Below, in pieces: positions 2,248 through 47,813 of a stretch of 49,671 nt of DNA (position 1 is its first letter; each line of letters starts with the position of its first letter). A program made the position numbers and the translations under genes. This DNA is from a virus. The stretch lies in IMG/VR virus record IMGVR_UViG_3300045996_001785, positions 1 to 49,671 of that record, one strand, 5' to 3'. The notes beneath the pieces were generated by a model. That model did no database searches. It saw nothing but the letters and a program-made list of their open reading frames with translations, and had not been told where the DNA came from.

Positions 2248-3744
2248 ATGTCCCGCACCATCGGCATCCTCGTCGCGGCACTCGCCGTGGTGATCGCCCT
2301 GTTCTTCCTGTTCGCCCCCTACTACTCCACCCAGCTGTGGTGGTTCTTCCGGCTGAACTGGTTCTGGTTCGTCCCGATCGTGCTGGTGGTCCTCGCCGGG
2401 CTGGCGGCAGCGTGGGCCTTCGACGAGCGCAACGGCCTTGGCGGGCCGCTCGCGCTGGTCACCGTCGCCGGGGTACTGGCCTGCGCAGCCTGGTTCTTCG
2501 CCTACAACTATGTGCAGGCCAGCTACTACGCCGACACCGTCCAGGTGACCGAGGACCCGCTCCCGACGCAGGCCGTGCGGCCGCCGTTCACGGTCAGCCA
2601 GGCGCAGGTCCGCTCGAACCTCGGTGACGTCCCCGGCGACACCCAGACCACCATGTACGTGCCGGAAGACTCCACGTTCTCCACCCTGGTCGAGCGCCGC
2701 GGCATGTTCACCGGCTACCAGACGCTGCTGGAGCAGAAGGCCACCACCACCGGCCGCCTGGACCCGGCCCGGTGCGACTTCGCCCCACAGGCCGACCGCC
2801 GCCTTGACGGCGTCCTCAGCCACTCCCTGGAGCGGGCGATCAACACCGAGCAGCGGTGGGTGAACTGGTCCTACGACGACGCCTACGGCTGGTGCGACCC
2901 GCAGGGCACCCCGTACGTGGTGGTGCCGCTGGTGGAGCAGGACGGGTTCTGGGTGGTCACCGAGAAGCCCGCCGGGGTGGCGCTGTACAACGGGAAGTCC
3001 GGCGAGCTGACTATCTCCCCCGACGGCCGCACCCCCGACGGCCGGGTCATTCCCGGCCCCACCTACCCGCTGTCGCTGGCCGCCGAGCAGCGCGCCAGCA
3101 CCGAGGCGATGGGCTCCTACTTCGACTACGTGTTCGGCCGGGTCGGCTGGGAGCTGCCCGACGAGGCCGACGCCATCAACTCGTCGGCGTCCTCGGAGTT
3201 CGTGCTCGGCGGGGCCGACGGCCCGAACTTCGTCACCCCGCTGTCCGGGCGCGGCTCGGCCACCGCGATCTCCGCGATCTCCTCGGTCGACGCCCACAAC
3301 ACCGGCGCGCTGAACAAGGTCGTCATCCACAAGCTGGGTACGCAGGCGCACCCGGTGTGGCAGTCCCCCACCGCGATCACCGACAACCTGCGGGCCACCT
3401 TCGGCGACGTGTTCGTCACCAACCCCGGCGCGGAGCTGTCCGAGCTGGCGCCGACCACCTCCGACACGTTCGTCGCGACCCTCGGCCGCCCGCAGAACAT
3501 CGTCTACCGCATCACCGGGCGGGGGGACCTGTCCCAGCCGATGTGCCTGGTCGGCCTGGACGGCGCCACGATCCGCTGCGGCGGCACCGGCCAGTCCGGG
3601 GTGGCGACCAGCCAGCTCGGCGGCGCACAGCCCGCCCCGGCCGCCGCGAACAGCGACCTGGCGAAGTTGACGCCCGAGCAGCTCGCGGACCTGTCCCGGC
3701 GGGCGAACGAGGAGCTGCTGCGCCAGCTGAAGGCCGGGGGCTGA
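2248..3744 (+). CDS. Large membrane-anchored protein with soluble C-terminal domain
   Basis: This 498-aa protein has three hydrophobic helices in the first 90 residues (about 4-24, 36-58 and 67-88). A soluble domain of about 380 residues follows and ends in a charged, probably helical tail (LADLSRRANEELLRQL). The soluble part contains conserved-looking blocks such as YVPEDS, YGWCDPQG and GPTYPLSLAAEQR. It is the largest gene in the left plus-strand region. It has its own promoter-like element and a good Shine-Dalgarno (GAAAGG), and its stop overlaps the next start. I do not recognise a characterised family. A membrane or surface role, for example superinfection exclusion, is only inference. 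Confidence 0.85.
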   Translation: MSRTIGILVAALAVVIALFFLFAPYYSTQLWWFFRLNWFWFVPIVLVVLAGLAAAWAFDERNGLGGPLALVTVAGVLACAAWFFAYNYVQASYYADTVQVTEDPLPTQAVRPPFTVSQAQVRSNLGDVPGDTQTTMYVPEDSTFSTLVERRGMFTGYQTLLEQKATTTGRLDPARCDFAPQADRRLDGVLSHSLERAINTEQRWVNWSYDDAYGWCDPQGTPYVVVPLVEQDGFWVVTEKPAGVALYNGKSGELTISPDGRTPDGRVIPGPTYPLSLAAEQRASTEAMGSYFDYVFGRVGWELPDEADAINSSASSEFVLGGADGPNFVTPLSGRGSATAISAISSVDAHNTGALNKVVIHKLGTQAHPVWQSPTAITDNLRATFGDVFVTNPGAELSELAPTTSDTFVATLGRPQNIVYRITGRGDLSQPMCLVGLDGATIRCGGTGQSGVATSQLGGAQPAPAAANSDLAKLTPEQLADLSRRANEELLRQLKAGG

Positions 3745-4933: not shown

Positions 4934-5239
4934 ATGCCGAAGCATCTCCCCCCGGCCCCCGGCGAGCCGGACCCCGAAGCCCGGCGGATCATCGAGCTGA
5001 TCTACGGCTACCTCCACGCCGACCGCGACCCGATCGCCGTCGCCGCCGGGCTGCGGCACATCTACTACTGGGCCGAGGTCTACTCCGACGAGGCGATCGA
5101 GCAGGCGAAGACCGCCACCGACCCGGACACCGGGCGGCCGTACACGTTCGACCGGATCCGGGAAGCCACCGGCTTCGTGATCAGCACGGCGCAGGGCCGG
5201 ATCGCGATGGCCCGCCGCCGCCGGAGGGGCGCGGCATGA
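4934..5239 (+). CDS. Hypothetical phage protein
   Basis: The ATG at 4934 has a GAGGCAGG Shine-Dalgarno and gives 101 aa. An in-frame GTG at 4868, overlapping the previous stop, would add 22 residues. A TACAGT hexamer at 4888-4893 could be a -10, which would favour the inner start. The protein is helical, with a YGYLHADRDPIAVAAGLRHIYYW core, and ends in a run of arginines (MARRRRRG) that may bind nucleic acid. Family not recognised. Confidence 0.65.
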   Translation: MPKHLPPAPGEPDPEARRIIELIYGYLHADRDPIAVAAGLRHIYYWAEVYSDEAIEQAKTATDPDTGRPYTFDRIREATGFVISTAQGRIAMARRRRRGAA

Positions 5240-6111
5240 CTGTCGACGCCGCCTGCGAGTCGATCATCGCAGGCTTCAAGGTGATGTTCCTGATCATCCT
5301 GCCCATGCTGGGTCTCGCCCGGCTGATGGAGCTGTACCTGACGAGGCGGAAGGTCCGCGACGAGAAGACGGCGCTCGACGTCACTACCGAGCTGCGCGCC
5401 TGGCAGTCCGAGGTGGCCGTCCGACAGCACCGGTTGCGGAGCCCCGGCTGCGCCTGCGGTCGATGCCAGGAGTGGTCCAGTGTTCGGTCGCCATCACCCC
5501 CGGACATCCTGCCGGACTCCCGCGTGCTGACGATCGAGCCCCGCGACGAGAGCGACCCGTTCGGCACCTGCCCGAAGTGCAAGCTGGCCGGGACTCACGG
5601 CCTGGCGCCGGTGGAGGCCAACGCCGGGTGGACCCGGATGACGCACCCCGTGCTGCAGCGCACCATCGACGTTGCGAAGTCCGCGGTGCCGGAGCACACG
5701 CGGTCCGGCTGGGTCGAGGTGGGAGCGTGGGCGGCACAGCGCACCTGCGTGTTCTGCGGCCACCGCTGGAGGACCAGCCCGGCACCGGCAGGCCCGATCG
5801 TCGGTGCCCCGGACCGGCCGCAGGCCTTGGATCGGCCACAGTCGGAGTCGACGTGTCGGACGTGCGGGGCGGAAGGGCTCTGGGCCTACTCGTGCTACTC
5901 CCCGCCGTCGGGCCACGAGATCGTCCCGGACCCGGCGATCGGCGGCTTCCGGCTGCGTTGCCCGAAGGTGCGACGGGCCGAGGAGTGCCAGGCTCGGGCG
6001 GCCGAACTGACGGCGAAGACGGAGCAGGCCGACGAGACCCTGACTAAGCTGAGCCAGCGCCTGCTCGACGAGCAGGCCGTGCGAGACCTCATCGGGCCGG
6101 GCGACTCCTAG
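5236..6111 (+). CDS. Membrane-anchored zinc-ribbon protein; N-terminus paralogous to a late-operon protein
   Basis: This 291-aa protein starts at ATG 5236, overlapping the previous stop. An N-terminal transmembrane helix (about residues 12-30) leads into a basic segment (LTRRK) and then four CxxC-type knuckles (CACGRC, CPKC, CVFC, CRTC) plus later cysteines, which suggest two zinc ribbons. The C-terminus is a coiled coil. Residues 25-60 (L-R-L-ELYLTRRK to ELRAW) closely match the protein at 15965-16345 in the late operon. The stop codon overlaps the stop of the converging HicA-like gene. Function unknown. Confidence 0.8.
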   Translation: MTVDAACESIIAGFKVMFLIILPMLGLARLMELYLTRRKVRDEKTALDVTTELRAWQSEVAVRQHRLRSPGCACGRCQEWSSVRSPSPPDILPDSRVLTIEPRDESDPFGTCPKCKLAGTHGLAPVEANAGWTRMTHPVLQRTIDVAKSAVPEHTRSGWVEVGAWAAQRTCVFCGHRWRTSPAPAGPIVGAPDRPQALDRPQSESTCRTCGAEGLWAYSCYSPPSGHEIVPDPAIGGFRLRCPKVRRAEECQARAAELTAKTEQADETLTKLSQRLLDEQAVRDLIGPGDS

Positions 6112-6351: not shown

Positions 6352-7179
6352 TCACGAACGCAGCAGATCGAGCAACAGATCCCCGGACACCGCCACCCGC
6401 CGCAGCACCTCGAACGCCGCCGTGTACACGGCCACATCCTCCGGGAGGGTGAGCCGCTGCTCGCCGGTCAACGTCTCCACCTCCGCGATCTCGTCGTCGA
6501 CGACCACGAACCCCGACAGCGGCAGCACCGGCGACGGCCGCGAGAACGGCAGCACCGCCACCTCCACGTTGTCCAGCTCCGCCGCCATCGCCAGCCGGTC
6601 CAGCTGCGACCGCTGCAGCTGCGCCGACCCGAACCGCACCCGCAGCGCCGCCTCCCCCAGCACGAACTGGAACCGGGTGACCCCCGAGTACAGCGACGCC
6701 TGCTGGCGCCGGGCCCGCGCCGCCGCCATGTCCGCCACCTGCTCCGCGTCCACCCCCAACGCCGCCGGGGCCGTCGCCAGCGCCGCCCGGGTGTAGCCGG
6801 GGATCTGCAGCAGCCCCGGCACCAGCGACGGCTGGTACTCCCGCACCAGCTCCGCCGCGGCGTCCCGGGCGACGATCTCGTCCTGCACCTGGGCTGCCTG
6901 CCCCGACGTCCACGCCTCCGCCCACGCCCGGTACCCGAGCCGGGCGTCCGCCGCGAGCCGGTCCAGCTCCTCACTGTCGGCCAGCCCCGCACCGGTCACC
7001 AGCACCCACTGCCGCAGGTCCTCCGGCGACGGCAGCTGCGTGCCCCGTTCCAGCTTCGACACCCGGGTCTGAGTCCAGCCCACCGCCTCGCCGAGCGCGG
7101 TCTGCGACACCCCGCCCCGCACTCGCAGCGCGCGCAGCGCCGCCCCCAGCCGACGGCGCGTCGGCGACACCCCGTTCAC
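6352..7179 (-). CDS. XRE helix-turn-helix regulator, Scr1/DUF5753 family
   Basis: The GTG at 7179 overlaps the stop of the DUF6879 gene and gives 275 aa. Residues 9-65 form an XRE helix-turn-helix (RRRLGAALRALR, then SQTALGEAVGWTQTRVSKLE). The remainder matches DUF5753 with its EYQPSLVPGLLQIPGYTRA hallmark and the later RRQQASLYSG and FVVVDD blocks. Such proteins are abundant on actinomycete chromosomes as WhiJ/Scr1-like regulators paired with small DUF397 or DUF6879 proteins. Here it sits in a phage beside a divergent control region and is the best candidate for a repressor. Confidence 0.9.
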   Translation of the reverse strand: MNGVSPTRRRLGAALRALRVRGGVSQTALGEAVGWTQTRVSKLERGTQLPSPEDLRQWVLVTGAGLADSEELDRLAADARLGYRAWAEAWTSGQAAQVQDEIVARDAAAELVREYQPSLVPGLLQIPGYTRAALATAPAALGVDAEQVADMAAARARRQQASLYSGVTRFQFVLGEAALRVRFGSAQLQRSQLDRLAMAAELDNVEVAVLPFSRPSPVLPLSGFVVVDDEIAEVETLTGEQRLTLPEDVAVYTAAFEVLRRVAVSGDLLLDLLRS

Positions 7180-7745
7180 CGGCGGACGCTCAACGCCCGC
7201 GCGGACAGCTGCGGGCGGGCCGCCAGGAAGACCTCCAGCGGCGTCGACTGCCGGATCGAGGCCAGCACCCACGGGTGCGTCTCACGCCGCCAGCCGCGCG
7301 CGGTCACCCCGAACAGCTGCCCGTCTCGGGAGTAGGCGACGTCGTAGCGGGAGCCGTCGATCACCCAGAAGTCGAACCGGGGCACCCTGTCCGGCCAGCC
7401 CCGGCTGGCGTCGGCGATCCGGATCCGTTCCCCGGCCGCCGCGTTCGGGGGGTACGCCCAACACAGCTCGAACTGCAGGTACGGCGACAGCGGCTCGGTG
7501 ACCACGTGCACCCGCTGGAACAGCACCCCGGCCGCGACCTTCGCCCGGAGCATGGCCTCCCACTCGTCCTGCTCGGGGCAGGCGGGCGGCCACCAGTCGC
7601 CGCGGGTGAACGCCCGCAGCCAGGCCTGCTCGGACGGCTCCCGATACTCCGGCAGCGTCTCCAGCCGGAACACCGCCTGCCGGGCACCGCGCAGGATCCG
7701 CTCGAACTCCCGGCTGGTGATCAGCTGTTCTGCTCCGCTCGCCAC
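7176..7745 (-). CDS. DUF6879 family protein
   Basis: From GTG 7745 this is a 189-aa protein. It shows the DUF6879 pattern: an ARQAVFRLETLPEY block, a W-containing helix, a block ending in FELCWAYPPNAAAGE, then PRFDFWVID and the VAYSRDGQLFG strand pair. These proteins are usually encoded next to DUF5753 XRE regulators in actinomycetes. Their biochemical role is unknown; a regulatory or toxin-antitoxin partner role is usually inferred from gene order. It overlaps the upstream small gene by 25 nt and the downstream regulator by 4 nt, so the three are one operon. Confidence 0.85.
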   Translation of the reverse strand: MASGAEQLITSREFERILRGARQAVFRLETLPEYREPSEQAWLRAFTRGDWWPPACPEQDEWEAMLRAKVAAGVLFQRVHVVTEPLSPYLQFELCWAYPPNAAAGERIRIADASRGWPDRVPRFDFWVIDGSRYDVAYSRDGQLFGVTARGWRRETHPWVLASIRQSTPLEVFLAARPQLSARALSVRR

Positions 7746-8801: not shown

Positions 8802-9335
8802 ATGCAGTGCCCGACGTGCGAGGGGACGCGCTACGTCGGCGACGAGCTGTGCCGGAAGTGTGGAGGGCGCGGCCAGGTCGCCGACCGACCCCGCCTCGCC
8901 ATGCTCAACGCCTGGCTCGACGCGGCCCGGCCGTGGCAGGAGCACGTCCTGCGCTACGCCTGCACGATCATCCTGGTGTGGTCGGCGTGGGCGTTCTGCG
9001 CCGGGCTCGGCGAGGACAGCGGCTCCACCTCGGTGGGGCTGCTGTTCGCGGTGCTGTTCTCCGCCGTCCCGTCGGGCTGGTTGTGGGGCCGCGAGGTCCA
9101 CGAGGCCCGGATGCGCCACGAGCGCGACCAGAAGACCCCCGGTTCCACTCACTGGATCGCCACCCAGGAGTCCACGAGCGAGACCACGCCGCGGCAGCGG
9201 GATCAGCCGCTCAACCAGGGCGAGTCGTGGCGCCCGCAGCAGCAGCGGGGTCGCGGCCCGGAGTCGTTCGGCTACGACATGCCCGGCTGGGAACAGCAGG
9301 CCGCCGCCGCCGACAACAGCGACAACGACGACTGA
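8802..9335 (+). CDS. Membrane protein with DnaJ-type zinc finger
   Basis: This 177-aa protein begins with two CxxCxG-like repeats (C3, C6, C17, C20) as in the DnaJ cysteine-rich domain. Two transmembrane helices follow (about residues 48-68 and 77-96), then a long polar, glutamine-rich tail. The topology suggests the zinc module and the tail both face the cytoplasm. There is no J domain. It lies directly before the terminase pair. Function unknown. Confidence 0.7.
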   Translation: MQCPTCEGTRYVGDELCRKCGGRGQVADRPRLAMLNAWLDAARPWQEHVLRYACTIILVWSAWAFCAGLGEDSGSTSVGLLFAVLFSAVPSGWLWGREVHEARMRHERDQKTPGSTHWIATQESTSETTPRQRDQPLNQGESWRPQQQRGRGPESFGYDMPGWEQQAAAADNSDNDD

Positions 9336-9359: not shown

Positions 9360-9875
9360 GTGTCCGAAGGTCCCGACGATGAGCGGCGCCCGGGAAACGG
9401 ACACAAGGGCGCCGAGCGGCCGAAGCTGATCGGGCAGGCGTGGCGGCTGGCCGTCCAGTACGGCTACACCTACCCGCAGATCGCTCGGGAACTCGGGGTC
9501 AGCGTCCCCACCGCGAAGGAGTACGTGAGGCTCGGCCACGAGGCCGGAGACCACGTGCACCTGATCGACATCGCGAAGCGCCGGGAGATGTCGGTGGCCG
9601 CCCTGGACTACTGGAAGGGCGAGATCACCACCCGCTACATGGCGCGGGCGTTGCCGCTGGAGAAGGCGTTCCCGCTGTGGAAGCTGGCCGACGACGCGCA
9701 AGCCCTGCGGCTCGGGCTCAACGCTCCGATCAAGACCCAGAACGTGCCGGAGGAGCCGGAGATCTCCCCCGAGGTGCTGCAGGAGATGCGGGAGGTCCGG
9801 CGGCTGGTGTGGCAGGAGCAGCAGGAGATCGAGAGGAGGGCGGGCGATGGCAGCGGCAATGGCGGACTCCCCTGA
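9360..9875 (+). CDS. terS: Terminase small subunit-like protein (first module)
   Basis: The GTG at 9360 sits behind an AAGGGAGG-rich tract and gives 171 aa. Residues about 25-60 form a helix-turn-helix (AWRLAVQYGYTYPQIARELG, then SVPTAKEYV), the DNA-binding type found in small terminase subunits. A helical oligomerisation-like centre and an acidic helical tail (SPEVLQEMREVRRLVW) follow. It overlaps the start of a large terminase gene by 29 nt, the normal TerS-TerL order, which is the main support for the call. TerS proteins recognise the packaging site and regulate the large subunit. Confidence 0.75.
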   Translation: MSEGPDDERRPGNGHKGAERPKLIGQAWRLAVQYGYTYPQIARELGVSVPTAKEYVRLGHEAGDHVHLIDIAKRREMSVAALDYWKGEITTRYMARALPLEKAFPLWKLADDAQALRLGLNAPIKTQNVPEEPEISPEVLQEMREVRRLVWQEQQEIERRAGDGSGNGGLP

Positions 9876-11376
9876 CACGCTCATCGTCCCGCGCGGGTTC
9901 AACGCGGACGCGTTGATCGCCCCGATGAACGTCGCCTCCGCCAGCCGCGACCCGCGGATCGGGCACCCGGCGGTGCGCCGCCAGGTCACTCGCGACTCCC
10001 CCGTCCGGTTCGCCCTGATGTACCTGCCGCACCTGCTGCGCTCCCGGGAGACCGGCTGGCAGATGTCGCTGAACTGGCTGCACCTGAAGATGGCCCACGA
10101 CGCCAGCATGTGGGCGGCGAAGAAGGCGCTGGTCCGGCGCTGGCGCCGCGGCTACATCGGACCCCGCGACGTCGGGAAGTCGCTCTGGGGCTTCGAGATC
10201 GACCCGCTGTGGGCGCTGGCGCACGAGCACCGCAACTTCTTCATGGCGTTCTCGAACAACGGCAAGCAGGCCCGCAGGCACCTGGCGAACATCCGCCGAG
10301 AGCTGGAGACCAACGAGCTACTCCTGGGCGACTTCCCGCACCTGCGCCCGAAGCGCCGCCGCGGCTGGTCCGACACCGACGTGGAGGTCAACCGGGGCCC
10401 GGTGACATTCGCGGCCGTCGGGATCGACGAGCAGTCCCAGGGGATCCGCCGCGATCACGACCGGCCGCAGATCCTGTGGGGCGACGACCTGGAGCCGGAC
10501 GCCGCCCGCTACTCCCCGAAGAAGGTCAAGGCCCGGCTCGACACCCTGATCAACTCAGTGTTCGGGATGAACCCGGAGGCCGCGATCGGCCTGACCGGCT
10601 ACACCACGATGCGCGGAACGATCATCCACCAGATGGTGCAGCACGCCCTGGGGGAGAAGACCGCGGACTGGATCGTCGAGCAGGGCTTCGCCGACAACAT
10701 CCACTACTTCCCGCCGGTCATCGAGCACCGGGACGGGACCCGTGAGTCGCTATGGGGGGTCAAGTGGTCGCTGGGCTACCTGGACTCGATGTACGGCACC
10801 CGCTACTACGCGCTGAACTTCCTGAACAACCCGGCGGCCGAAGTGTCTGGTAGCACCTGGTGGACCCGGTCGCTGATCCGCTGGAACCCGGACGCCGAGG
10901 TGCAACGCCCGATCATGTGGGTGGACCCGGCGGTGTCCAATAAGGAGGACTCCGACTACACCGCCATCACGATCGCGGCGCTGACCATGGACTACCGCAA
11001 GGTCGTCATCGCCTACTGCCGCGGGTTCCGCTGCAGCCCCGAGGAACGCAAGCGCAAGATCCACGCGCTAGCGCGGGAGTGGGGGGTGCGCGAGGTGTTC
11101 GTCGAGGTCAACCAGGGCGGCGACCTGTGGCCCGCGCTGCTCGGCCCGATGCCGCCCGGCGTGACCCTGGAGGTGGAGACCGCGACCCGTCCGAAGGAGG
11201 TGCGGATCGAGGAGTTCCTGCACGCGTACGAGAAGCGCGAGGTCGAGCACCTCGGCCCGCTGCCCGACCTGGAGGACCAGCAGGTCGGCTACCCGGACGC
11301 CTCGGTGCACGACGACCTGATCGACTCCGGAGCCGGAGCGACCGACAAGCTGCTGTCGCGACGTGCGCGACGGTAG
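9847..11376 (+). CDS. terL: Terminase large subunit (first module, plus strand)
   Basis: This 509-aa protein is full length for a large terminase. It has a canonical Walker A GPRDVGKS (residues 105-112) and a Walker B-like ILWGDDLE (209-216). The C-terminal RNase H-like nuclease has the acidic triad in WVDPA (D360), VEVN (E420) and HDDLID (D489/D490/D493). It would drive ATP-dependent DNA packaging and cut concatemers. The start ATG follows AGGAGG. It is not next to any portal gene and is only distantly similar by eye to the second large terminase at 45897-47537. It could serve another packaging specificity, be a relic, or be used by a satellite. Confidence 0.88.
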   Translation: MAAAMADSPDTLIVPRGFNADALIAPMNVASASRDPRIGHPAVRRQVTRDSPVRFALMYLPHLLRSRETGWQMSLNWLHLKMAHDASMWAAKKALVRRWRRGYIGPRDVGKSLWGFEIDPLWALAHEHRNFFMAFSNNGKQARRHLANIRRELETNELLLGDFPHLRPKRRRGWSDTDVEVNRGPVTFAAVGIDEQSQGIRRDHDRPQILWGDDLEPDAARYSPKKVKARLDTLINSVFGMNPEAAIGLTGYTTMRGTIIHQMVQHALGEKTADWIVEQGFADNIHYFPPVIEHRDGTRESLWGVKWSLGYLDSMYGTRYYALNFLNNPAAEVSGSTWWTRSLIRWNPDAEVQRPIMWVDPAVSNKEDSDYTAITIAALTMDYRKVVIAYCRGFRCSPEERKRKIHALAREWGVREVFVEVNQGGDLWPALLGPMPPGVTLEVETATRPKEVRIEEFLHAYEKREVEHLGPLPDLEDQQVGYPDASVHDDLIDSGAGATDKLLSRRARR

Positions 11377-11383
11377 CCCCACC

Positions 11384-11431
11384 TGGTACCGTTAAACCGG
11401 TAATCACGAGGAGAGGGGAAGGCCCACCATG
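11384..11431 (+). promoter_or_regulatory. Start cassette copy 2: extended -10, direct repeat and Shine-Dalgarno
   Basis: TGGTACCGT (11384-11392) runs into TAAACCGGTAA, forming the tandem octamers ACCGTTAA and ACCGGTAA. After a few bases come GAGGAGAGGGGAAGG and CCCACC, directly before ATG 11429. The block repeats almost exactly at 11860-11907. Confidence 0.65.
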
Positions 11432-11859: not shown

Positions 11860-11907
11860 TGCTACCGTTAAACCGGTAACCACGGAGAGAGGAAGGCCCA
11901 CCTCATG
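11860..11907 (+). promoter_or_regulatory. Start cassette copy 3: extended -10, direct repeat and Shine-Dalgarno
   Basis: TGCTACCGT (11860-11868) runs into TAAACCGGTAA, then CCACGGAGAGAGGAAGG and CCCACCTC before ATG 11905. The block differs from copy 2 at only a few positions, and the spacing to the start codon is nearly the same. Confidence 0.65.
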
Positions 11908-12768: not shown

Positions 12769-12812
12769 AAAAAGGGCCGCCCTTCCCCGGGGACGTGGGG
12801 AAGGGCGGCTCT
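12769..12812 (-). terminator. Rho-independent terminator of the late operon
   Basis: A perfect 13-bp G/C-rich stem (12776-12788 with 12797-12809) closes an 8-nt loop. In the leftward direction it is followed by a TTTTT tract (plus-strand AAAAA at 12769-12773). In the rightward direction it is followed only by a TCTCTCTCC run, so it should act best on the late operon and weakly on the converging one. Confidence 0.9.
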
Positions 12813-13234: not shown

Positions 13235-14127
13235 CGTGTCCCCTCCTGACGGTCCAGCCAGGCCTGCGCGCGCTCCACGAACGCGGCGAGGTCGGCGGCG
13301 AACAGGTCGTCCTCCGACGGCGCCGGAGGCGGTGGCGGGGCAGGCGGGGCGGGCAGGCTCGGGAACGGGGTGTCGGTGAGCGCCTCGTAGTCGTAGGCCA
13401 GCGCGTCCAGGTCGACACCGTCGAGGAACACCCGCTGCCCGAGCAGCTCCGGCCAGATCACCACCCACGCCTCGTCGAGCTGGCGGGCGAAGAACTCGTC
13501 GGTGCACGGCTGCACCTGACCCCAGGTGATCACCGAGATGTCCGGCTGGCCCCGCTCGACCATGCCGGTGTAGGCCCCGGCCATCACCGCGTGCCCGCCC
13601 CACGCCCGCGACCGGCGCACGTAGTCCCACGGCTGGCCGGTGGCGAACTGCTCGTCCTGGGCGGCGTCGAGGTCCAGCCCGCACAGCACCGACCCGAACA
13701 GGGCGATCGCGGCGTGCACCTCCTCGAAGCTGTCCGGGTCGACCGCGGCGTAGGCGAGCGGCTTCTGCCCGGCGATCCCGTTCTTCAGCAGCGCGGACAG
13801 CAGGTCCGCCATCACCACCCCGTTGTCGTCGGCGCCGGTGGCCGGGTCGAAGCCGGGGTTGAGCAGCTGGTAGAGCCGGAACACGTCGGTGTCGGTGGGC
13901 GGGAACCCGTGGTCGGTGAGGTACTCGGCGACCTGGGCGCGCTGGTGCGCGACGCTGGCCGGGCCGCACGTCCCGAACTGGAAGTTGCCGTAGGGGCTCC
14001 ACTCCGGCACCCGCAGCAGGTAGTTCGCGGTGGACGGGAAGGCGGGCGCGTGCCCGGTGAGGTAGCGGCCCAGCTTCAGGACCGGCCGGTCCGGGTCACG
14101 GGGGAGCCGCCCGAGCGCGCCGCTCAC
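13231..14127 (-). CDS. Papain-like (C39/C1-type) cysteine peptidase, probable lysis protein
   Basis: The GTG at 14127 overlaps the amidase stop and gives 298 aa. Residues FGTCGPASVAHQ put the presumed nucleophile at C54, and WGGHAVMAGAY puts the presumed general base at H179, with an ITWG strand after it, as in papain-like and C39-like peptidases. A proline-rich linker (APPPPPAP) leads to a C-terminal helix. Next to the amidase it may cut peptide cross-links in the cell wall, making a two-gene endolysin. Substrate and role are inferred. Confidence 0.7.
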   Translation of the reverse strand: MSGALGRLPRDPDRPVLKLGRYLTGHAPAFPSTANYLLRVPEWSPYGNFQFGTCGPASVAHQRAQVAEYLTDHGFPPTDTDVFRLYQLLNPGFDPATGADDNGVVMADLLSALLKNGIAGQKPLAYAAVDPDSFEEVHAAIALFGSVLCGLDLDAAQDEQFATGQPWDYVRRSRAWGGHAVMAGAYTGMVERGQPDISVITWGQVQPCTDEFFARQLDEAWVVIWPELLGQRVFLDGVDLDALAYDYEALTDTPFPSLPAPPAPPPPPAPSEDDLFAADLAAFVERAQAWLDRQEGTR

Positions 14128-15044
14128 TTCGGCTCGAATTCGATCGAGATGAACCCGCCCTTGCCCTTCACCGTGACCCAGGCCTCGATGTACTCGGCGC
14201 CGGAGGGGATGGGCTCCCGCACGCGGGAGGCGTTGCGGAAGGTCGTCGGTCCCCATCCCTTGCCCGCGCCGGGCGGCGGGCCGTCACTGGCGGCGTCCTT
14301 CTGGAACAGGACGGTCATGGTCCCGCCACCCTCACCGGAGACGGAGACCCAAGCCCGGCCGTACAGCAGCGAGGCGGTACCGACCATCGCGGGCAGCCGG
14401 ACGTAGTTCGCTCCGGGGACGAGCTTCTCGTGCAGGATCACGGGCTCCACCTTGGAGTCGGGGGTTGTGGAGGTCGAGGGGCTGGAGTGCAGCGCGCCCC
14501 AGATGCCGCCGCGGAAGCCACCCATGTCGATCGTCTTGCCGGGGGCGTAGCCGGGGTCCCACTTGCCGGTGATCGAGGTCTCGGCGTGCGCCCGGCACCA
14601 CTCCGGGTTCGGGCGCTTCAGGATCCCGGACACCACCCCGCACATGATCTGTGCGGAGCGGAACTGGGCGGAGGTCATCGGCCGGGAGCCGGGGTACATG
14701 ATCTCCAGGCCCCAGGCGCGGCGGTTGAACAGGCCGGTCACCGGCAGCGGGCCCATCGACCGGCCGCCGGAGGCCCCGGCGTGGTTCGCCGGGTGCGCCG
14801 CGACCAGGGTCAGGTCACCGTTGGCGTGCCCGGCCATGTTGCACAGCGGCCCGTCGAGGTCGGAGCGGCCGTTGACGAGCAGGTCCATCCCGCCGTCGAA
14901 GGCGCCCGCGGTGTGGTGCACCAGGGCGCCCTCGTAGGCCGAGGTCTGGCCGTTGCCGCGGCTGTAGCAGCCGGGCAGCTCGTGTACACGCAGCCCGTTG
15001 TGGCGGCAGCCCGCCACGACCGCGCGGGCGAAGGCGACGGACAT
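14124..15044 (-). CDS. N-acetylmuramoyl-L-alanine amidase endolysin
   Basis: This 306-aa protein has an amidase_2/PGRP-type zinc hydrolase domain: LVHHTAG (H43/H44) at the first metal-binding position, GPLCNMAGHANG and NRRAWGLEI core strands, and AHAETS...GKWDPG with the second metal ligand region and catalytic Lys/Asp. After residue 205 a serine/threonine linker leads to a beta-rich C-terminal domain, probably a cell-wall or receptor binding sandwich. It cleaves the amide between MurNAc and L-Ala. It has no signal peptide, so it needs a holin. Confidence 0.92.
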   Translation of the reverse strand: MSVAFARAVVAGCRHNGLRVHELPGCYSRGNGQTSAYEGALVHHTAGAFDGGMDLLVNGRSDLDGPLCNMAGHANGDLTLVAAHPANHAGASGGRSMGPLPVTGLFNRRAWGLEIMYPGSRPMTSAQFRSAQIMCGVVSGILKRPNPEWCRAHAETSITGKWDPGYAPGKTIDMGGFRGGIWGALHSSPSTSTTPDSKVEPVILHEKLVPGANYVRLPAMVGTASLLYGRAWVSVSGEGGGTMTVLFQKDAASDGPPPGAGKGWGPTTFRNASRVREPIPSGAEYIEAWVTVKGKGGFISIEFEPK

Positions 15045-15964: not shown

Positions 15965-16345
15965 TCAGGACTGGACGATAGGCAGGCGCGGGTCGGTGCC
16001 CGAGCTACGTACCGGGCAGGGAGGACCCCCCTGGCAGTGCAGGATCTTCGCCCGGAGGCGGTCGAGCTGGCTCTCGGTCTCGTCCAACTTCGCGGTGATC
16101 TCATCGATACGGGTCGACAGCCGGTTCGAGCGTTCCTCGGCGGCGGAGGCTCGACTGTTGGCTTCCGCGGTCCACGCCCGCAACTCGGAGGAGATCACCG
16201 AGGCGGCGTCGACCTCCAGCTTCGCGCCCTCCCCGCGGGTCTTCCGCCGGGTGATCATCAGCTCCAGCAGCCGCGACAGCCCGACTGCACCGGCGAGGGC
16301 GAGGATGAACTGCGACAGCGCACCCGGCTCCAGCAGGCTGCTCAC
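15965..16345 (-). CDS. Membrane-anchored coiled-coil protein, paralog of the 5236-6111 N-terminus
   Basis: The GTG at 16345 overlaps the upstream stop and gives 126 aa. One transmembrane helix (about residues 10-28) is followed by LELMITRRK and ELRAW blocks that also occur in the plus-strand protein at 5236. A long coiled coil (residues about 55-100, RIDEITAKLDETESQL) and a CxxxxxxC tail follow. It resembles phage membrane-tethered accessory or spanin-like proteins only in layout. Function unknown. Confidence 0.75.
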   Translation of the reverse strand: MSSLLEPGALSQFILALAGAVGLSRLLELMITRRKTRGEGAKLEVDAASVISSELRAWTAEANSRASAAEERSNRLSTRIDEITAKLDETESQLDRLRAKILHCQGGPPCPVRSSGTDPRLPIVQS

Positions 16346-24908: not shown

Positions 24909-27900
24909 TCATGTCGAGCGGATGGTCAGCACGATCCGTCGCTGCGGGGGCCCGGTGCTCCAGCGGCGCGCCGCCGGGGTGGTCCAGCGGCGCGCCGCCG
25001 GGGTGACCGCGGAGATCGTCCGAGTCAGGATCAGTGGCGGGGTGAATAGGGCCGCCGTCGGCGTGGGCAGCTCCGCGACCAGTGCACCGGCGGTGCGCGG
25101 ACCCCCGGTGAGCGTCGATGTCGGGCCCGGGGTCCGGGTGTCCAGCGCGGCGGCGGCGTAGGTGTCGCCGTCGATGTCGGCGTCCGGGCCGGGGAGCTGC
25201 CCAGTCAGGACGACAGCGATGAACCCGTCGCCGGTGAACTGGCCGGTCGGGGCGCCGACCGCGCCCGCCAGCGCGCCGGCCTGGCGGACCGCACCCGCCA
25301 GCGCGCCGTCCACGCCGGACACGGCTCCGGCCAGCGTGCCGGGGGTCCGGGCGGTACCGGTGACGGCGGCAGCGACGTCCGGGGTCTGCCCGGCCAGCGT
25401 GCCGGAGGCAGTGATCTCACCGCTGACGACCTGACCGCTGGCCTCCGGGGTCTGCCCGGCCAACGACCCGGAGACGCGCGCGGCGCCCGCCAGCGCAGCG
25501 TCCGGACCGGGAAGGGTCCCGGAGACGACGCCCGACGCGACAGAGGTCCCGGCCAGCGCTGTGGCGACCCCGCCGGTGGTCCCGGCGAGCGCACCGGACG
25601 CGGTGATCTGCCCGGACGCCAGGTTCGCCAGTACGTCCGGGGTCTGCCCGGCCAGCGTGCCGGAGGCGCGGACACCACCAGCCAGCGCGGCATCCGGGGT
25701 GCCGGTGGCCCCGGCCAGCGCACCCGGCGCCCGGCTCATGCCAGTCAGGGCCCCGTCCGGGCCGCCGGTGGTCGCCGCCAGCGCCGCGGAGGTGCGTGCG
25801 TCCCCGACCAACGCACCGCCGAGGGCGGGCGTACTGGCGACGACCGCGCCGGACGCGGTGATATCACCAGTGGTGAACTGGCCGAGCACCCGGGCGGTGT
25901 CAGCGTCCAGCGCACCGGAGACGGTAGCGCCACCGGTCAGAGTCGCGCTCGGGGCGTTGGTGGACGCGGCCAGCGCGCCGTACGCGGCGGCCCCGGCCAG
26001 CGCCGCGGCCGGGGTGCCGGTGGTGGCGGCCAGCGCTCCGCTGCTGCGGGCGCCACCGACCAGTGCGGCATCCGGGCCGCCGACCGTCCCAGCCAGCGCG
26101 CCGGTGGTCTGCGCGGCGCCGGTCAGGGCGACGGCGGCAGTGCCGGTGGTGGTGGCCAGCGTGCCGTCGACGGTGGCAGCGCCGGAGCTGAACGCCGCGG
26201 TCGCCTGCGGGGCGGTACCCGCGACCGCGCCGGAGATCTGCGCGGTCCCGGCCAGCGAGCCCGTGGCTACCCCGGCGGTGCCGGACAGGGCGCCGGTGGC
26301 CTGCACAGTCCCGGCCAGGGCGGCGGCAGCCGGGGGACCGTCCGCAGCCAGCGCGCCGTTCGCGGACCCGGCCCCGGCCAGCGCCGCCGCTGCTGTCGGG
26401 GCGGACCCGGACAGTGCGCCGGTCTGTCGCACCCCGGCGGCCAGGGAGCCAGCGACATCCGGGGTGGACCCGGCCAACGCGCCGGAGATCCGCACGGTCC
26501 CGGCCAGGGCGCCGGTGGTGTCCGGAGCGGTCGCGGTCAGCCCGCCGGTGGCCCGCACGGTCCCGGCGATCGAGCCGGTCGCGGCGGCGGCGGTACCCGC
26601 GACCGCGCCGGTCTGGCGGACCGCCGCGGTCAGGGCGCTGACGGCGTCCGGGGTGGATCCGCCAATGGCGCCGGTCAGGCGCACGTCACCGACGAGCGCA
26701 CTGGTGACGTCCGGGGTGGACCCGGCCAACGCGCCGGAGGTCGACGTGACGGGCAGTGACGTCGCCCGGACCCGCAGCACGACCCCGACGTTGGTCTCCG
26801 AGGCGTTCGCGGTGCCGGTGGTGGATGCGGTCGCCGAGCCAGACCCGGCGGTGACCGGGACATCCCAGGCGGCGACAGCGAGGTCATTGCCGGTGTTGCT
26901 GGCCGAGGTCCCGGTCGGGGACTGTGTGATCGTCCCCATGGTGCAGCCAGTGATCGACAGCGCGGTCAGGGTCAGGGTGGTCTGGGTGTCGTCCGGGCCG
27001 CCGACGACGACGAGCATCCGGTCCTTCACGGCAGCCTCGACCGCCGTCGCGGTGGTACCGGAGATCGAGGTGGACGCGGTCGCCTTCGAGTAGGAGCTGA
27101 ACGCCTCCTCGAACGACAGCCCCGACCCCGGGGTGTCCGGCCGGTAGGCGATCATCATCGCCTGGGCCGAGTTCCCCGAGGTGATCGTCACCGACTGGGA
27201 CCCGGACAACCCGCCGGAGGGCACCACCCGCTTGAACACGGTGACCCGGGTCTGCCCGGCGCCCACGCCCTGGGTGCCGCCGCCGCCGGTGACCGACAGG
27301 ACCGACGACCAGTTGGCCGGGGTACTCGGGGTGACCGTGTCCGGGCGGTTGTGTACCACCAGGTAGCAGGCGTCGTTCTCCTGCAACCCCGACGGGTGGG
27401 TCGGCGCCACTGAGGTGGTGCCGGTGACCCACGCGGTCGAATCGACCACGGTCAGGTCCAGCGGGGTGGGGCTGACCACGTCCCCGACCAACGCCGCGGT
27501 CGCCGTCGGGGCGGTCGCGGCCAGGGCGCCGGTGGCCCCGGCGGGGGCGGCGGGCGCGATCGCGAGAGTGACCGCGGCGTAGCCGTCGTTGGCGTCGGCG
27601 GTCGCGGTGCGGGTGCCGGTGGCGGTGGACGCGGTCAACGCCTCAGAGGCGACCGCGCCGGTGGACCACCCGCTGTCCTGCTCGACCAGCTCCGTCATGC
27701 CAGCGGGCGGGCTGATGTTCACGTCGGAGAACCGCACCCCGCCGGTCTGCCAGCCGCACAGCAGCAGCGTGTTGGCTACCCCGGGGGTGACGGACGCGGC
27801 GACCAGCGACGTGGTCCCCGTGTTCGAGGTCCCGGTCCCGGCCGCGGCGATCGGGCTAGCGGTGTCAGCCCCCGCGAGCACCACCACGATGCACGTCATG

Positions 27901-41686: not shown

Positions 41687-43210
41687 CTACGTAACGTTGA
41701 GCATGCGGAACGCGGAGAGGTTCACGGTACCGGCACCGGTCCGGTAGTACGCGTACCAGCCGCGCTGACCCGTCGGGCGGCCGAAGCCGGAGCCCGCGGT
41801 CGTCTGCTGGAACAGGTGCGGGATGAACTCCACCGTCATGCCGATCCGGTCGGCGATGATGTAGTTCGAGAAGTCGCCGAACACCGCCATGTAGTTCTCC
41901 TGGGTGGCGTTGATGACGCCATCCATGTCCTCGGCCTCGTAGATCGGCTTGCCGAGCAGCATCGCCGGGCGGTCCTCGCCCAGCTGAGCCCACAGGCTGG
42001 AGCCGCCCGCGGTGTCGAACTGGCGCGCCCGGTTGTAGAAGGCGTTCGTCGCCAGCCAGGAGGCGTTGGAGCGGTAGCGGGCCGGGAGCGAGCCCTGCAC
42101 GTTGTACAGGTCCGCGACCGCCAGGGTGTCCGCGGTGGCGGAGGTGACGATCGAGCCGGAGCCCACGAGGCTCGTGACGATGCCGGTCGGCTGGCCGGAG
42201 CCGGAGCCGACGGCGAACGCGGCCGCCTCCAGGATCTCGCGGCCCTCGGAGAGCAGCTTCGCGACCTCCTGGGCACCGTTGGCCATGTCCTGCAGCGCCT
42301 CGATGCTGACCGGCACGAACCCGGCGGCCTTGTAGACCGGGATGCTCGGCTGCGCGAACGTGGGCGTGTCGTCGGAGACCTGAGTGGCCTCCGCGTCCCA
42401 GCTCCAGCTCACCGCACCGGCGGTGACGCCGTTCCAGGTGTCACCGGTGGCGACGACCTGGCGGGCGACCCGGCGGATGTCGTTCCGCGAGCCGTTCGCG
42501 GTGACGATCACCGTCGGATCCAACTGAAAGGGCACCAGGTAGCCACCGGCGGAGTCGGTGAGCGACATCGCGCGCACCTGCTCCAGGGCCCGCTGCTCGT
42601 CGGCGGTGATCTCGTGCAGCCGGTTCGTGGACGCCTTCGCGAACGCCCGCAGGTAGGCCGGGGACGAACCGAGCAGCGCCACCCGGGCCAGGGTCGCGTC
42701 CTTGTCGTCGAAGCGCTCGACGATGCCGGTCGCGGCCTCGCGGATCCGGTCGGTCGAGGACGGCATCTTCGAGATGGCGTCCGTCGCGCGGGCCCGCAGC
42801 TCGGCGTTGACCTCCTCCTGGGAGCGGCCGAAGGTCCGCATCTCGGAGAGGTCCCACGGGTTGCGGAACCGGCAGTCCTCGATCGAGTCCGGCTCCAGCA
42901 GCGCGTCCCGGTCGTAGGAGTCGCTGTTGCCCACCGCGCCGCGCTCGACGCGCAGGTGGCGGGTGGCGGACACGCCCGCCGACGCCGAGCGGACCCGGGC
43001 CAGCTCAGCCTGGCGCTCCAGGTGCTTGCGGTGGGCGTCGACCTTGTCGAACTCCTGGCCCAGCTCGCGGAAGTAGTCGTCGTCCTCGGTGTTGGGGTTC
43101 TCCAGCTCGGCGAGCTGGGACATGATCTCGCGGATCTCGTTGAGGCGGTTCACCGACTGCGTGTGCGTCATCCGCAGCTCGGTGCTCTCCTCGTTCTTCT
43201 CGTCGGGCAT
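41687..43210 (-). CDS. HK97-fold major capsid protein with scaffold-like N-terminus
   Basis: This 507-aa protein has a charged coiled-coil N-terminus (residues about 10-75, NRLNEIREIMSQLAELE and onward) like the HK97 delta domain. A linker follows, then the capsid core with the family hallmark GGYLVPFQLDP (about residue 218), the WNGVTAGAVSW and PVSIEALQD blocks, and a KPIYEAEDMDG region. The protease encoded upstream should remove the N-terminal part. It assembles into the icosahedral shell. Confidence 0.95.
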   Translation of the reverse strand: MPDEKNEESTELRMTHTQSVNRLNEIREIMSQLAELENPNTEDDDYFRELGQEFDKVDAHRKHLERQAELARVRSASAGVSATRHLRVERGAVGNSDSYDRDALLEPDSIEDCRFRNPWDLSEMRTFGRSQEEVNAELRARATDAISKMPSSTDRIREAATGIVERFDDKDATLARVALLGSSPAYLRAFAKASTNRLHEITADEQRALEQVRAMSLTDSAGGYLVPFQLDPTVIVTANGSRNDIRRVARQVVATGDTWNGVTAGAVSWSWDAEATQVSDDTPTFAQPSIPVYKAAGFVPVSIEALQDMANGAQEVAKLLSEGREILEAAAFAVGSGSGQPTGIVTSLVGSGSIVTSATADTLAVADLYNVQGSLPARYRSNASWLATNAFYNRARQFDTAGGSSLWAQLGEDRPAMLLGKPIYEAEDMDGVINATQENYMAVFGDFSNYIIADRIGMTVEFIPHLFQQTTAGSGFGRPTGQRGWYAYYRTGAGTVNLSAFRMLNVT

Positions 43211-43224
43211 GACCCGGTTCTCCT

Positions 43225-44169
43225 TCAGTCAGTAGTCGGAATGGCCAGCAGCCGGTCGCGGTAGGCCCGGTAGGACGCGCGGATCTGTTCGCGGCGCTCC
43301 TTCGGGCTGACCGGCCTGCTGGAAACCGAGTGCTGACCGGCCGAGGGGTCGGCCGCGGGCGGCGCGGAGTGGGGCTCCGGGTGCTCGTCGGCGGACCGCT
43401 CGGTGGTGTGCGGCTCGGTGATGTCGGGCGACTCGGGGGCGTCGTCCGGTGCCGCCGCGTCCGCGGCGGGGTCTGCGGAGGAGTCGCGGTCGGCGATGGC
43501 CACCAGTCGGGCCAGGCGCGCGATCTCCAGGGGGTTGTGGTCCTTCAGGCGGCCGAGGTCGAGGGTGACCACGCGGGCGCCGTCGTCGCGGGTGCGGACA
43601 CCGACCTCGGTGTCGGAGTAGGCGGGCCACACGACGGGGCCGACCTCGCTGACCCGGACCTCCTTCAGCGTGCGGCGCAGCGGGCCGCGATCGCCGGGGC
43701 CGCGCCAGAGCAGGTCGAACAGCTCGTCTTCCTTGATCAGCTTCTGGTCCTTGTCGCGCCACTCCTCGCGCACGACCGAGAACCGGAAGCTCATCCCGGA
43801 CACGCCGCCGTCGGCGATGGCGTCGCGGAAGGGCTGGACCAGCCAGTTGTCCGAGAGCCGCCCGACGACGTGCAGGCCGCGGGCGTCCTCCTCGACGGTG
43901 GTGTAGCGACCCATCGGCACCGACCCGAGCAGCGGGTGGCGGCCGTGGTCGAACTGCATGATCGGAGTGCGCTCGCGCAGCGACTTCTTGAACGCGCCGG
44001 GAGCGATGACCTCCTCGAAGGTCCCCTCCCAGGAGTTGATCTCGGTGACGCTGTTGAACAGCGCGCCGTAGCCCTCGATCGTCAGGCCGTCGTCCTCGTC
44101 GGACTCGGCGCGAGTCAGGGTGAAGGCCGCAGAACGGCACAGGTCGGCCCGGTAGATCTCGTTCGGCAT
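43225..44169 (-). CDS. HK97-type prohead protease with charged C-terminal tail
   Basis: This 314-aa protein has the U35-like serine protease core: EGYGALFN, the PGAFKKSL helix, QFDHG with catalytic H75, and GVSGMSFRF with the catalytic Ser (S124 or S127). The core ends near residue 190. The rest is acidic, proline-rich and probably disordered, finishing with a basic helix (KERREQIRASYRAYRDR) that may act as a scaffold. It matures the capsid protein encoded next. Confidence 0.92.
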   Translation of the reverse strand: MPNEIYRADLCRSAAFTLTRAESDEDDGLTIEGYGALFNSVTEINSWEGTFEEVIAPGAFKKSLRERTPIMQFDHGRHPLLGSVPMGRYTTVEEDARGLHVVGRLSDNWLVQPFRDAIADGGVSGMSFRFSVVREEWRDKDQKLIKEDELFDLLWRGPGDRGPLRRTLKEVRVSEVGPVVWPAYSDTEVGVRTRDDGARVVTLDLGRLKDHNPLEIARLARLVAIADRDSSADPAADAAAPDDAPESPDITEPHTTERSADEHPEPHSAPPAADPSAGQHSVSSRPVSPKERREQIRASYRAYRDRLLAIPTTD

Positions 44170-44188: not shown

Positions 44189-45703
44189 TCAGCTGGGGAT
44201 CACGGGCGCGGGAATCACGGGCAGACTCTCCGACCGCTTCGCGGGTGTCGGCTTCGGCGCGGGCTTCGGTGCGGGCTTCGCGGGTGTCGGCTTCGCCCCG
44301 TTCGGGGTGGGCTTCGCCGGTTCGGTGGGCTTCGCCGGGTTCTTCTCGGCGCCGGGCGGCAGCAGCTGCACGCTCACCAGCCCGGAGTGATCGAGTAGCG
44401 TCCAGTCCGCGGCACCGGCGGCCATGAACCGCGACACCGACTCGGGGGTGTAGCCGCCGTCGACGAGGGTCCGCACCGTGCGGGCCTGGGTCTCGGCGAT
44501 CTCCGCGGCGTCCTTGGAGTCCTCACGCAGGAACGGCACGTCACGGGTGTCGAACCACAGCCGGGCCCCGCCGGGCGCCTTGCGGATCTGCTCCAGCGAC
44601 CCGGCGGCGTTGCCCCACAGCGGGTGCATCGTGCCGTCGGCGAACCGGCGGCGGGCCTGGGCGTAGTTCGAGTAGGTCGCGGCCTGCAGCCCCTCGGAGA
44701 GCCCCACGATGATCGGGGGGACCCCGGCGGCCGCGGCGATGCGGGTCTCGCCGTGTCCCTGGGTGGCGGAGAACTCCAGCTGGGCGAAGTTCGCGCCCAC
44801 CACCACCGGGTCGGCGCCGCCGCCCAGGTGCATCGTGCGGTAGGCGTTGTCGGCTCCGGCGTGGCGCTCGTCGAGGAACGCGGCGAACTGCTCCAGCTGC
44901 TCCTTGGTCACCGCCGGGTCGTGCTTGACCACCAGGTTCGGGGTGGCGGCGTGCTCCAGGAAGCGGCGCTTGTGCCGGATCATCAGGTCGTCCGCGGTCA
45001 CTTCCTTGATCACCGGGGTGAGCCAGGACATGCCCCGGTAGGAGGCCAGCGGGTCCGGGGTCGGCGCGAAATGCGCGACGTCGGAGTAGAGCAGCGGCAC
45101 CGGCTCGGACTCGCCGCGGCCGCCTTCGTGGTAGAGGAAGCCCAGCTTGCGCCAGCCCATCACCTGTGGGCCGCGGTCCGGGCCGCCGGTGGGGCGGGGC
45201 GGCCCGACGACCCGGGGCTCGCAGACGATGTCCACCCAGTCCGGGCGCAGCCGGATCAGCTCGCCCTCGTAGAGCGTCCAGTAGCTGTTCCCGGCCAGGT
45301 CCGCGTCGACGATCATCCGGGCCAGTAGGTCCTGGGTGGTGCCGCCCTCCCAGGGCCGCTCCAGCACCCCGAGGCTCGGGTCCCCGAACAGCTCGCTGGG
45401 CCGTCCCGCGCGCAGCGCCTGGTACTGGAAGCGCGCCGCGGAGAACACCGACAGCCGGGCCGCCATGCACGCGAAGATCACGCTGGAGGACCCGAACATC
45501 TGGGAGGCCATCCCGACGAAGTCGCCCTGGATGCGCTCCGCGGCCTGGTGACCCATCGTCGTCACGAACGGGTCGGAAGTGGCGCCCAGCGGGTAGTAGT
45601 TGCCGTTGAACCCGAAGGTGTTCACCGCGGACAGGTAGTCCTCGACGGTGGAGATGGACCGGGTGTCGTCGGCCTGGCCGAGCAGACGCTGCAGGAGGTT
45701 CAC
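44189..45703 (-). CDS. Portal protein
   Basis: This 504-aa protein starts at GTG 45703. It has the HK97-like portal pattern: FACMAARLSVFSAARFQYQ, LDADLAGNSYW-type block, PVPLLYSDVAHFAP, YRGMSWLTP, NLVVKHDPAVT and AAAAGVPPIIVGLSEG. The last 50 residues are a proline/lysine-rich tail (KPAPKPAPKPTPAK). The portal ring is the DNA entry vertex and docks the terminase encoded upstream. Confidence 0.93.
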   Translation of the reverse strand: MNLLQRLLGQADDTRSISTVEDYLSAVNTFGFNGNYYPLGATSDPFVTTMGHQAAERIQGDFVGMASQMFGSSSVIFACMAARLSVFSAARFQYQALRAGRPSELFGDPSLGVLERPWEGGTTQDLLARMIVDADLAGNSYWTLYEGELIRLRPDWVDIVCEPRVVGPPRPTGGPDRGPQVMGWRKLGFLYHEGGRGESEPVPLLYSDVAHFAPTPDPLASYRGMSWLTPVIKEVTADDLMIRHKRRFLEHAATPNLVVKHDPAVTKEQLEQFAAFLDERHAGADNAYRTMHLGGGADPVVVGANFAQLEFSATQGHGETRIAAAAGVPPIIVGLSEGLQAATYSNYAQARRRFADGTMHPLWGNAAGSLEQIRKAPGGARLWFDTRDVPFLREDSKDAAEIAETQARTVRTLVDGGYTPESVSRFMAAGAADWTLLDHSGLVSVQLLPPGAEKNPAKPTEPAKPTPNGAKPTPAKPAPKPAPKPTPAKRSESLPVIPAPVIPS

Positions 45704-45900
45704 GTACGGGACCCCCTACCGGTCGGGACGGGACGGACGGGCGCGAGCAGGCACAGCGCGGCCAGCGCGCCGCCGCCGAGGATCAGCAGCGCGGCCAGCC
45801 CGAACAGCACCCCCCACAGCAGGGTCGCCAGTAGGAACACCCCGCCCAGCACGAGCAGGCCACCGAGCACCAGCCCGGCGGCGGCCAGGGCGGGGGTCAC
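45700..45900 (-). CDS. Small membrane protein between terminase and portal
   Basis: The GTG at 45900 overlaps the terminase stop and gives 66 aa with two hydrophobic helices (ALAAAGLVLGGLLVLGGVFLL and LFGLAALLILGGGALAALCLL, given as landmarks). Its stop overlaps the portal start. Membrane proteins are unusual between TerL and portal. Function unknown. Confidence 0.65.
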   Translation of the reverse strand: MTPALAAAGLVLGGLLVLGGVFLLATLLWGVLFGLAALLILGGGALAALCLLAPVRPVPTGRGSRT

Positions 45901-47540: not shown

Positions 47541-47813
47541 TCAGTCCCTCGCGGGCCAGTGCCAGGTGCCGCCCTCGTGGCCGTAGCCGGTGCACAGGTC
47601 CCAGCCGGGGCCGTCGGGGCGGCCCGAGTCGTAGCCGACGCCGTTCGTCTCCAGGCGCAGGTGGAAGGCCCCGGAGGGGCTGATCACGAACAGCCCGAGG
47701 TGGCCGCCGCGGTCCAGGCCGACCTCGCCGACCTCGGTGACCAGCGCGGCCCAGCAGGCGACCCGGTCGCTCTGCTCAGGACGCGGCACGTAGTGCACGA
47801 TCCGCCCGATCAT
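47541..47813 (-). CDS. Conserved small protein between terminase subunits
   Basis: This 90-aa protein starts at ATG 47813, overlapping the TerS stop. It matches small actinophage proteins usually encoded between the terminase subunits: IVHYVPRPEQSDRVACWAALVTEV (landmark ends IVHYV and LVTEV), GLFVISPSGAFH and a GGTWHWP end. Function unknown. Confidence 0.75.
   Translation of the reverse strand: MIGRIVHYVPRPEQSDRVACWAALVTEVGEVGLDRGGHLGLFVISPSGAFHLRLETNGVGYDSGRPDGPGWDLCTGYGHEGGTWHWPARD

Follow-up and report, generated by a model that had tools for sequence, protein, structure and literature searches.

A second terminase pair without an adjacent portal in a clade of phage genomes

Two terminase pairs on converging arms

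The sequence analysed here, IMG/VR record IMGVR_UViG_3300045996_001785 (the window), is a contig of 49,671 bases and 71% GC from an actinophage-like soil phage. From 48.4 down to about 12.8 kb, its minus strand is occupied by the genes for TerS1, TerL1, portal, protease and capsid, and by tail and lysis genes. The plus-strand arm, from about 1 to 12.7 kb, holds mostly small genes, with a second pair, TerS2 and TerL2, close to its end. A 13-bp GC-rich hairpin with a T-run on the minus strand (12776–12809) lies where the TerL2-side genes converge with the lysis and late genes, among them an endolysin (14124–15044, minus strand; phrog_880, E 5e-31). The original prediction of a plus-strand TerS/TerL pair at 9360–11376 alongside a minus-strand pair is borne out, with profiles recovering both pairs in these places.

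TerS2 (9360–9875, plus strand; phrog_645, E 8e-6) is a small terminase subunit of 171 aa with a helix-turn-helix (HTH) and long helices. It starts with GTG, directly preceded by a purine-rich stretch resembling a ribosome-binding site, and overlaps TerL2 by 29 nt. The AF2 model (pLDDT 88) has an HTH plus a helical body, and a fold search against the PDB gave no significant full-length match. A profile built from the TerS2 proteins of genomes in which TerL2 has no adjacent portal (orphans, described below) retrieves the annotated TerS of phages KimJongPhill and Isperia as well as, in dozens of portal-linked relatives, the gene that precedes TerL. The gene overlap and these profile matches together mark TerS2 as the cognate small subunit of TerL2.

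TerL2 (9847–11376, plus strand; 509 aa) matches phrog_38 (E 1e-55) and Pfam Terminase_6C (31.5 bits, cut-off 22.6). Its AF2 model (pLDDT 87.5, pTM 0.81) predicts an ATPase and RNase H nuclease fold, and Foldseek matches the model to the solved TerLs of PhiV-1, T4 (gp17), Sf6 (gp2), HK97 and D6E, from E 5e-17. The concern that a structure search might show the 9847–11376 product not to be a terminase did not materialize, and a non-terminase identity is ruled out by profile matches and fold. In a 40-sequence alignment, P106, R107 and K111 of the Walker A motif GPRDVGKS (10159–10182, plus strand) are invariant and G110 is nearly so; D213, D214 and E216 of the Walker B block ILWGDDLE (10471–10494, plus strand) are invariant; and the acidic residues D360, D370, E420, D489-D490 and D493 of the RNase H-like nuclease region (10924–11325, plus strand) are conserved or invariant. 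The plus-strand TerL is therefore undecayed, as had been surmised.

Neither a portal nor a capsid gene was found beside TerL2 in the window, and no portal lies within 6 kb downstream of it. Just upstream of TerS2 is a gene for a Cys-rich, probably membrane-spanning small protein with a weak DnaJ CXXCXGXG match (8802–9335, plus strand). A DUF5753 HTH regulator and a DUF6879 gene, which commonly occur together in actinobacterial chromosomes, sit on the minus strand within the plus-strand arm (6352–7745). A CTACCGTTAAACCG-type motif occurs on the plus strand at 2165–2178, 11386–11399 and 11862–11875, 30–70 nt before plus-strand start codons; it flanks the TerL2 gene on both sides, and its last two copies are extended to CCGGTAA. 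It may be a start-associated or regulatory sequence, and its count of 4 at up to three mismatches is barely over chance (4 of 100 shuffles reach 4).

The minus-strand pair heads an ordinary late block of TerS1 (47810–48415; Pfam Terminase_7, E 1e-8), TerL1 (45897–47537; phrog_19179, E 7e-53; phrog_9, E 3e-37), portal (44189–45703; Phage_portal, E 3e-37), prohead protease (43225–44169; Peptidase_S78, E 4e-28) and HK97-type major capsid protein (41687–43210; Phage_capsid, E 2e-46). This portal is the sole one found in the window, giving the single PF04860 match in the record. About 2,000 phage-isolate records are related to TerL1, an ordinary actinophage TerL, which shows no meaningful sequence similarity to TerL2 (best E 0.012). 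The GKD in its P-loop, RRPQKWGKD, had been singled out as odd, yet it is normal for the lineage: in an alignment of 11 TerL1 proteins it is common to L004, G006, G411, G417 and the single-terminase prophage G001, whose TerL1 is 75% identical to that of the window. Decay of TerL1 on account of GKD is ruled out, since G001 carries the same motif with one terminase. Further along the late arm, 25300–27560 contains many degenerate repeats, often with 63-nt spacing, within a 1093-aa tail-region ORF.

The window is a partial genome, since a sister contig (L002) that matches its right, TerL1 end at 99.8% identity over 5.5 kb extends 678 bases beyond it. One alternative is a chimera joining two phages. 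The left arm has little kinship to anything, and no independent near-identical contig covers the point where the lysis and TerL2 sides meet; a sister contig spanning it was found neither with the membrane protein at 2248–3744 nor with the endolysin as query. We nevertheless consider a chimera extremely unlikely, because eight other contigs from separate samples also have two terminases. The layout in which TerL2 converges with the lysis genes is seen again in independent assemblies, some with the end overlap of closed genomes, the sister contig backs the TerL1 end, and GC is uniform along the window. Related small proteins are also found on both arms: those encoded at 5236–6111 (plus strand) and 15965–16345 (minus strand) have in common a 53-aa N-terminal stretch that is 42% identical (E 2e-9), a hint that the two arms come from one genome. 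An assembly error, a possibility flagged together with the prediction, is thus very unlikely to account for the second pair, as is a decaying remnant.

An old clade of second terminases

The closest phage relatives of TerL2 are the annotated terminases of Streptomyces phages PHTowN and Zuko/KimJongPhill and Microbacterium phages Isperia/OscarSo, together with those of the Streptomyces satellites MiniFlayer and Mulchroom. In all five records examined (PHTowN, KimJongPhill, Isperia, MiniFlayer and Mulchroom), a portal comes after TerL, with one small gene between the two in Isperia. Profile scans added about 100 further family members, nearly all with a portal directly downstream. L041, L044, L052, L054 and L062 were considered as portal-less TerLs and rejected, as a divergent portal adjoins each. 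When three different TerL2s were compared with phage isolates by tblastn, the close matches listed were annotated terminases of ordinary phages or satellites, with no orphan TerL2 among them. A search of genome contigs gave no match with the window TerL2 protein alone and 16 relatives with the TerL2 profile, every one portal-linked; the sole match in 396 Actinomycetota genomes was the query centre's own, known portal-linked TerL. Because related TerLs nearly always lie beside a portal, the ancestor of TerL2 was probably a packaging terminase. One family member (L030) comes from a MAG labelled as a Nitrososphaeria archaeon, in a family that is otherwise actinobacterial; the label is possibly a binning error.

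The adjacent cognate portal that nearly all relatives have is missing in at least nine genomes from separate samples, the window and G005, G006, G007, G410, G411, G416, G417 and G419. Each of the nine has a second TerL of phrog_9 or phrog_2 type alongside the orphan TerL2, compared with 0 of 29 portal-linked relatives scanned with these two profiles (Fisher p 6e-9, a value that ignores shared ancestry). Weak phrog_2 matches in G014, G439 and G440 fall on their own TerL2 and were excluded from this count. The earlier view that such a second pair, far from the portal, is unusual holds. A portal or portal-like gene comes after the other TerL in eight of the dual genomes (all but G419; called by eye in G006, G411 and G007), and a TerS lies beside TerL2 in all nine (by eye in G419). 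Three of the assemblies (G005, G007 and G417) have a 127-bp end overlap and are read as closed.

In an unrooted tree made with the tail columns removed, a branch supported at 100/98 (UFBoot/SH-aLRT) separates the nine orphans, together with a fragment (L219), from all other sequences, and the branches within this orphan clade are long. TerS2–TerL2 is an old, divergent clade of second terminases in phages that already have a head-module terminase. The suggestion of a recently acquired replacement fits poorly with such a clade, spread over nine genomes with different head modules.

The head modules themselves are diverse. G005 and G410 combine a phrog_2 TerL with a portal of 926–941 aa, G006 and G411 a phrog_9 TerL with another portal type, the window, G416 and G417 have an HK97-type head block, and G007 has yet another; the orphan pair thus occurs beside at least four head modules with no sequence link between them. 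G005 and G411 share TerL2 (64%) and TerS2, and near these also lysis genes, a small membrane protein and a Cys-rich protein, whereas their TerL1s, portals and capsids are not shared, which indicates that the pair outlived a head-module swap. The Cys-rich protein near TerL2 (about 120 aa; for example L120:10259–10639) is conserved in G005, G410 and G411, and the small membrane protein upstream of TerS2 (about 100 aa) in these three and also in G006; neither of the G005 proteins has a Pfam match. These neighbours in other dual genomes resemble the product of 8802–9335 in the window in general character.

This distribution also bears on whether the pair is a leftover of recombination with a PHTowN/Zuko-type phage, either a functionless captured fragment or an incoming replacement. 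The long branches of the orphan clade and a probable origin from a portal-adjoining packaging terminase would suit such a leftover. However, the pair forms one old clade across nine genomes, TerS accompanies TerL2 throughout and the catalytic residues are conserved. In addition, dN/dS between G005 and G410 is 0.46 for TerL2, resembling portal (0.46) and capsid (0.42), with TerL1 at 0.81; these are Nei-Gojobori estimates and are rough at 70% GC. We regard a leftover as very improbable and this explanation as mostly refuted.

A shortened C-terminal tail

Past the last nuclease motif, the C-terminal end of TerL2 (11326–11373, plus strand) is shortened and has no Tyr motif. Measured from the nuclease DDxxD motif to the stop, the window tail is 21 aa long, whereas the tails of portal-linked members span 28–40 residues (about 106 distinct tails), most of them ending in an S-x-Y-like motif. 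Eight of the nine orphan tails have 17–24 residues; that of G419 has 32, minus only the Tyr end. A Tyr within the last nine residues is found in none of the nine orphans and in about 83 of 106 portal-linked tails, so that about 23 of the latter likewise do without it; one duplicate was left out, which reduced the set from 107 tails and the Tyr count from 84. The shortening is probably largely one inherited event, so the tail statistics are not independent, and the Mann-Whitney and Fisher values for tails ignore this shared ancestry.

In lambda, the C-terminus of TerL is a portal-binding tether (PMC9026076). By analogy, the tail of the TerL2 family may be a portal tether too, a reading helped by relatives that use a divergent portal, which carry a different tail as well. 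With this role carried over from lambda, TerL2 would lack the C-terminal portal tether of its relatives.

Possible roles and known systems

We propose, with a probability of roughly 45%, that TerS2–TerL2 is a TerS-guided ATPase-nuclease uncoupled from its ancestral portal and acting on intracellular DNA. The second terminase seems to have been retained in these phages for another job, as the catalytic residues are kept and the ancestral portal and capsid partners are absent around TerL2. In our model, TerS2 would bind a DNA site and load TerL2 onto the bound DNA, and TerL2 would translocate along it, driven by ATP, and cut it, no longer docking on the ancestral portal. The likeliest targets would be competing phage, satellite or host DNA, or the phage's own replication intermediates. 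In seven of the nine dual genomes, TerL2 and TerL1 occupy opposite strands. Genes for an SF2 helicase, a C5 methylase and a RuvC-like resolvase are found upstream on the TerL2 strand of G006, and in G419 a primase-polymerase-like gene (named from sequence) follows TerL2, on the same strand as TerL1. The usually opposite strand and the DNA-metabolism genes near some relatives make intracellular DNA a probable substrate, rather than late capsid filling. More tentatively, TerS2–TerL2 may be a sequence-addressed DNA-cutting motor that does not package at all and, for example, destroys or processes competitor, satellite or host DNA early in infection. A retained TerS2 and full motor and nuclease motifs would be equally needed by a working packaging enzyme.

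The main rival is packaging through the phage's own, unrelated portal. TerL2 would dock there by another contact and package different DNA, be it host DNA, a satellite or, starting at a second pac site, the phage genome. Retention of both TerS2 and TerL2 with intact motor and nuclease motifs is compatible with this, as is the ownership of TerL2 relatives by MiniFlayer and Mulchroom. In G007, moreover, TerS2–TerL2 lies within the virion operon, downstream of the portal, a position that fits a packaging-linked role. The missing tail end and the absence of a second portal weigh against simple dual packaging, however, and with at least four unlinked head modules and a head swap, the portal contacts would need repeated rebuilding. 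We consider dual packaging unlikely, if less so than the other alternatives.

It is also conceivable, but improbable, that the pair interferes without cutting or packaging, with TerL2 or TerS2 occupying the portal or pac site of a rival or satellite or dampening terminase-sensing immunity (Avs). The terminases nearest to it belong to other actinophages and to Streptomyces satellites, potential co-infectors, and the PhiV-1 terminase bound to Avs3 is the top structural match, albeit one that any TerL might give. Yet ATPase and nuclease residues, needless for a decoy, are kept across divergent orphans, and a portal blocker would be expected to retain the portal tether. An embedded satellite is ruled out, as no portal, capsid or repeats accompany TerL2. 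The pair lacks the portal and capsid found beside the terminase in MiniFlayer-like elements and capsid-forming PICIs, and resides not in a small separate genome with terminal repeats or an integrase but in phage contigs of about 50–74 kb. Scans of eight dual genomes, three of them apparently closed, revealed no tyrosine or large-serine integrase; the relative G001 has one.

Among known systems, the TerLs of PHTowN/Zuko/KimJongPhill and Isperia/OscarSo resemble TerL2 in family (33–36% identity over about 90%) and in catalytic residues, and the TerS of KimJongPhill and Isperia is related to TerS2 at profile level. In these phages, though, the terminase is annotated as the head-module one, with portal, scaffold and capsid following, and the tails are 31–32 aa in the records examined; the window TerL2 is a second copy with a 21-aa tail and no portal. 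MiniFlayer and Mulchroom (PMC10690885) offer a TerL of the TerL2 family as an extra terminase in a two-phage setting, but these are separate genomes of 15–17 kb with their own portal, capsid and terminal repeats, none of which TerS2–TerL2 has within its full phage. Capsid-forming PICIs and TerS redirection by SaPIs (PMC10690885) likewise set a second, element-specific terminase function beside that of the phage; there, satellites redirect or supply packaging, whereas TerS2–TerL2 belongs to the phage's own genome. In reports of phages with two large terminases (PMC10773633, PMC11512304, PMC11273794), each genome has two TerL annotations, as does the window, but theirs are a single TerL divided between two ORFs or tandem homologues, unlike two unrelated, complete TerS–TerL pairs far apart. 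In one paper a second, distant terminase subunit was termed "unheard of" and then shown to be probably misannotated. Searches of open-access literature turned up split genes, tandem homologues or misannotations. The parts are known; the clade-wide arrangement is one for which we could not find a description in that literature.

TerL is regarded as the late packaging motor, with normally one per phage. This one-terminase rule is broken by a stable clade in which two complete, unrelated pairs coexist and in whose portal-less pair the terminase motor-nuclease is naturally set apart from the portal. Should the second pair indeed cut without packaging, it would be a new kind of phage-encoded DNA-targeting enzyme. 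TerL also serves as a single-copy marker in tailed-phage phylogeny (for example, PMC8626947), and phages with two TerLs can mislead such classification. On a smaller point of annotation, the PHROG labels of phrog_645 ("RNase E"), which contains TerS proteins, and of phrog_226 ("minor tail protein"), which matches TerS1, both look wrong.
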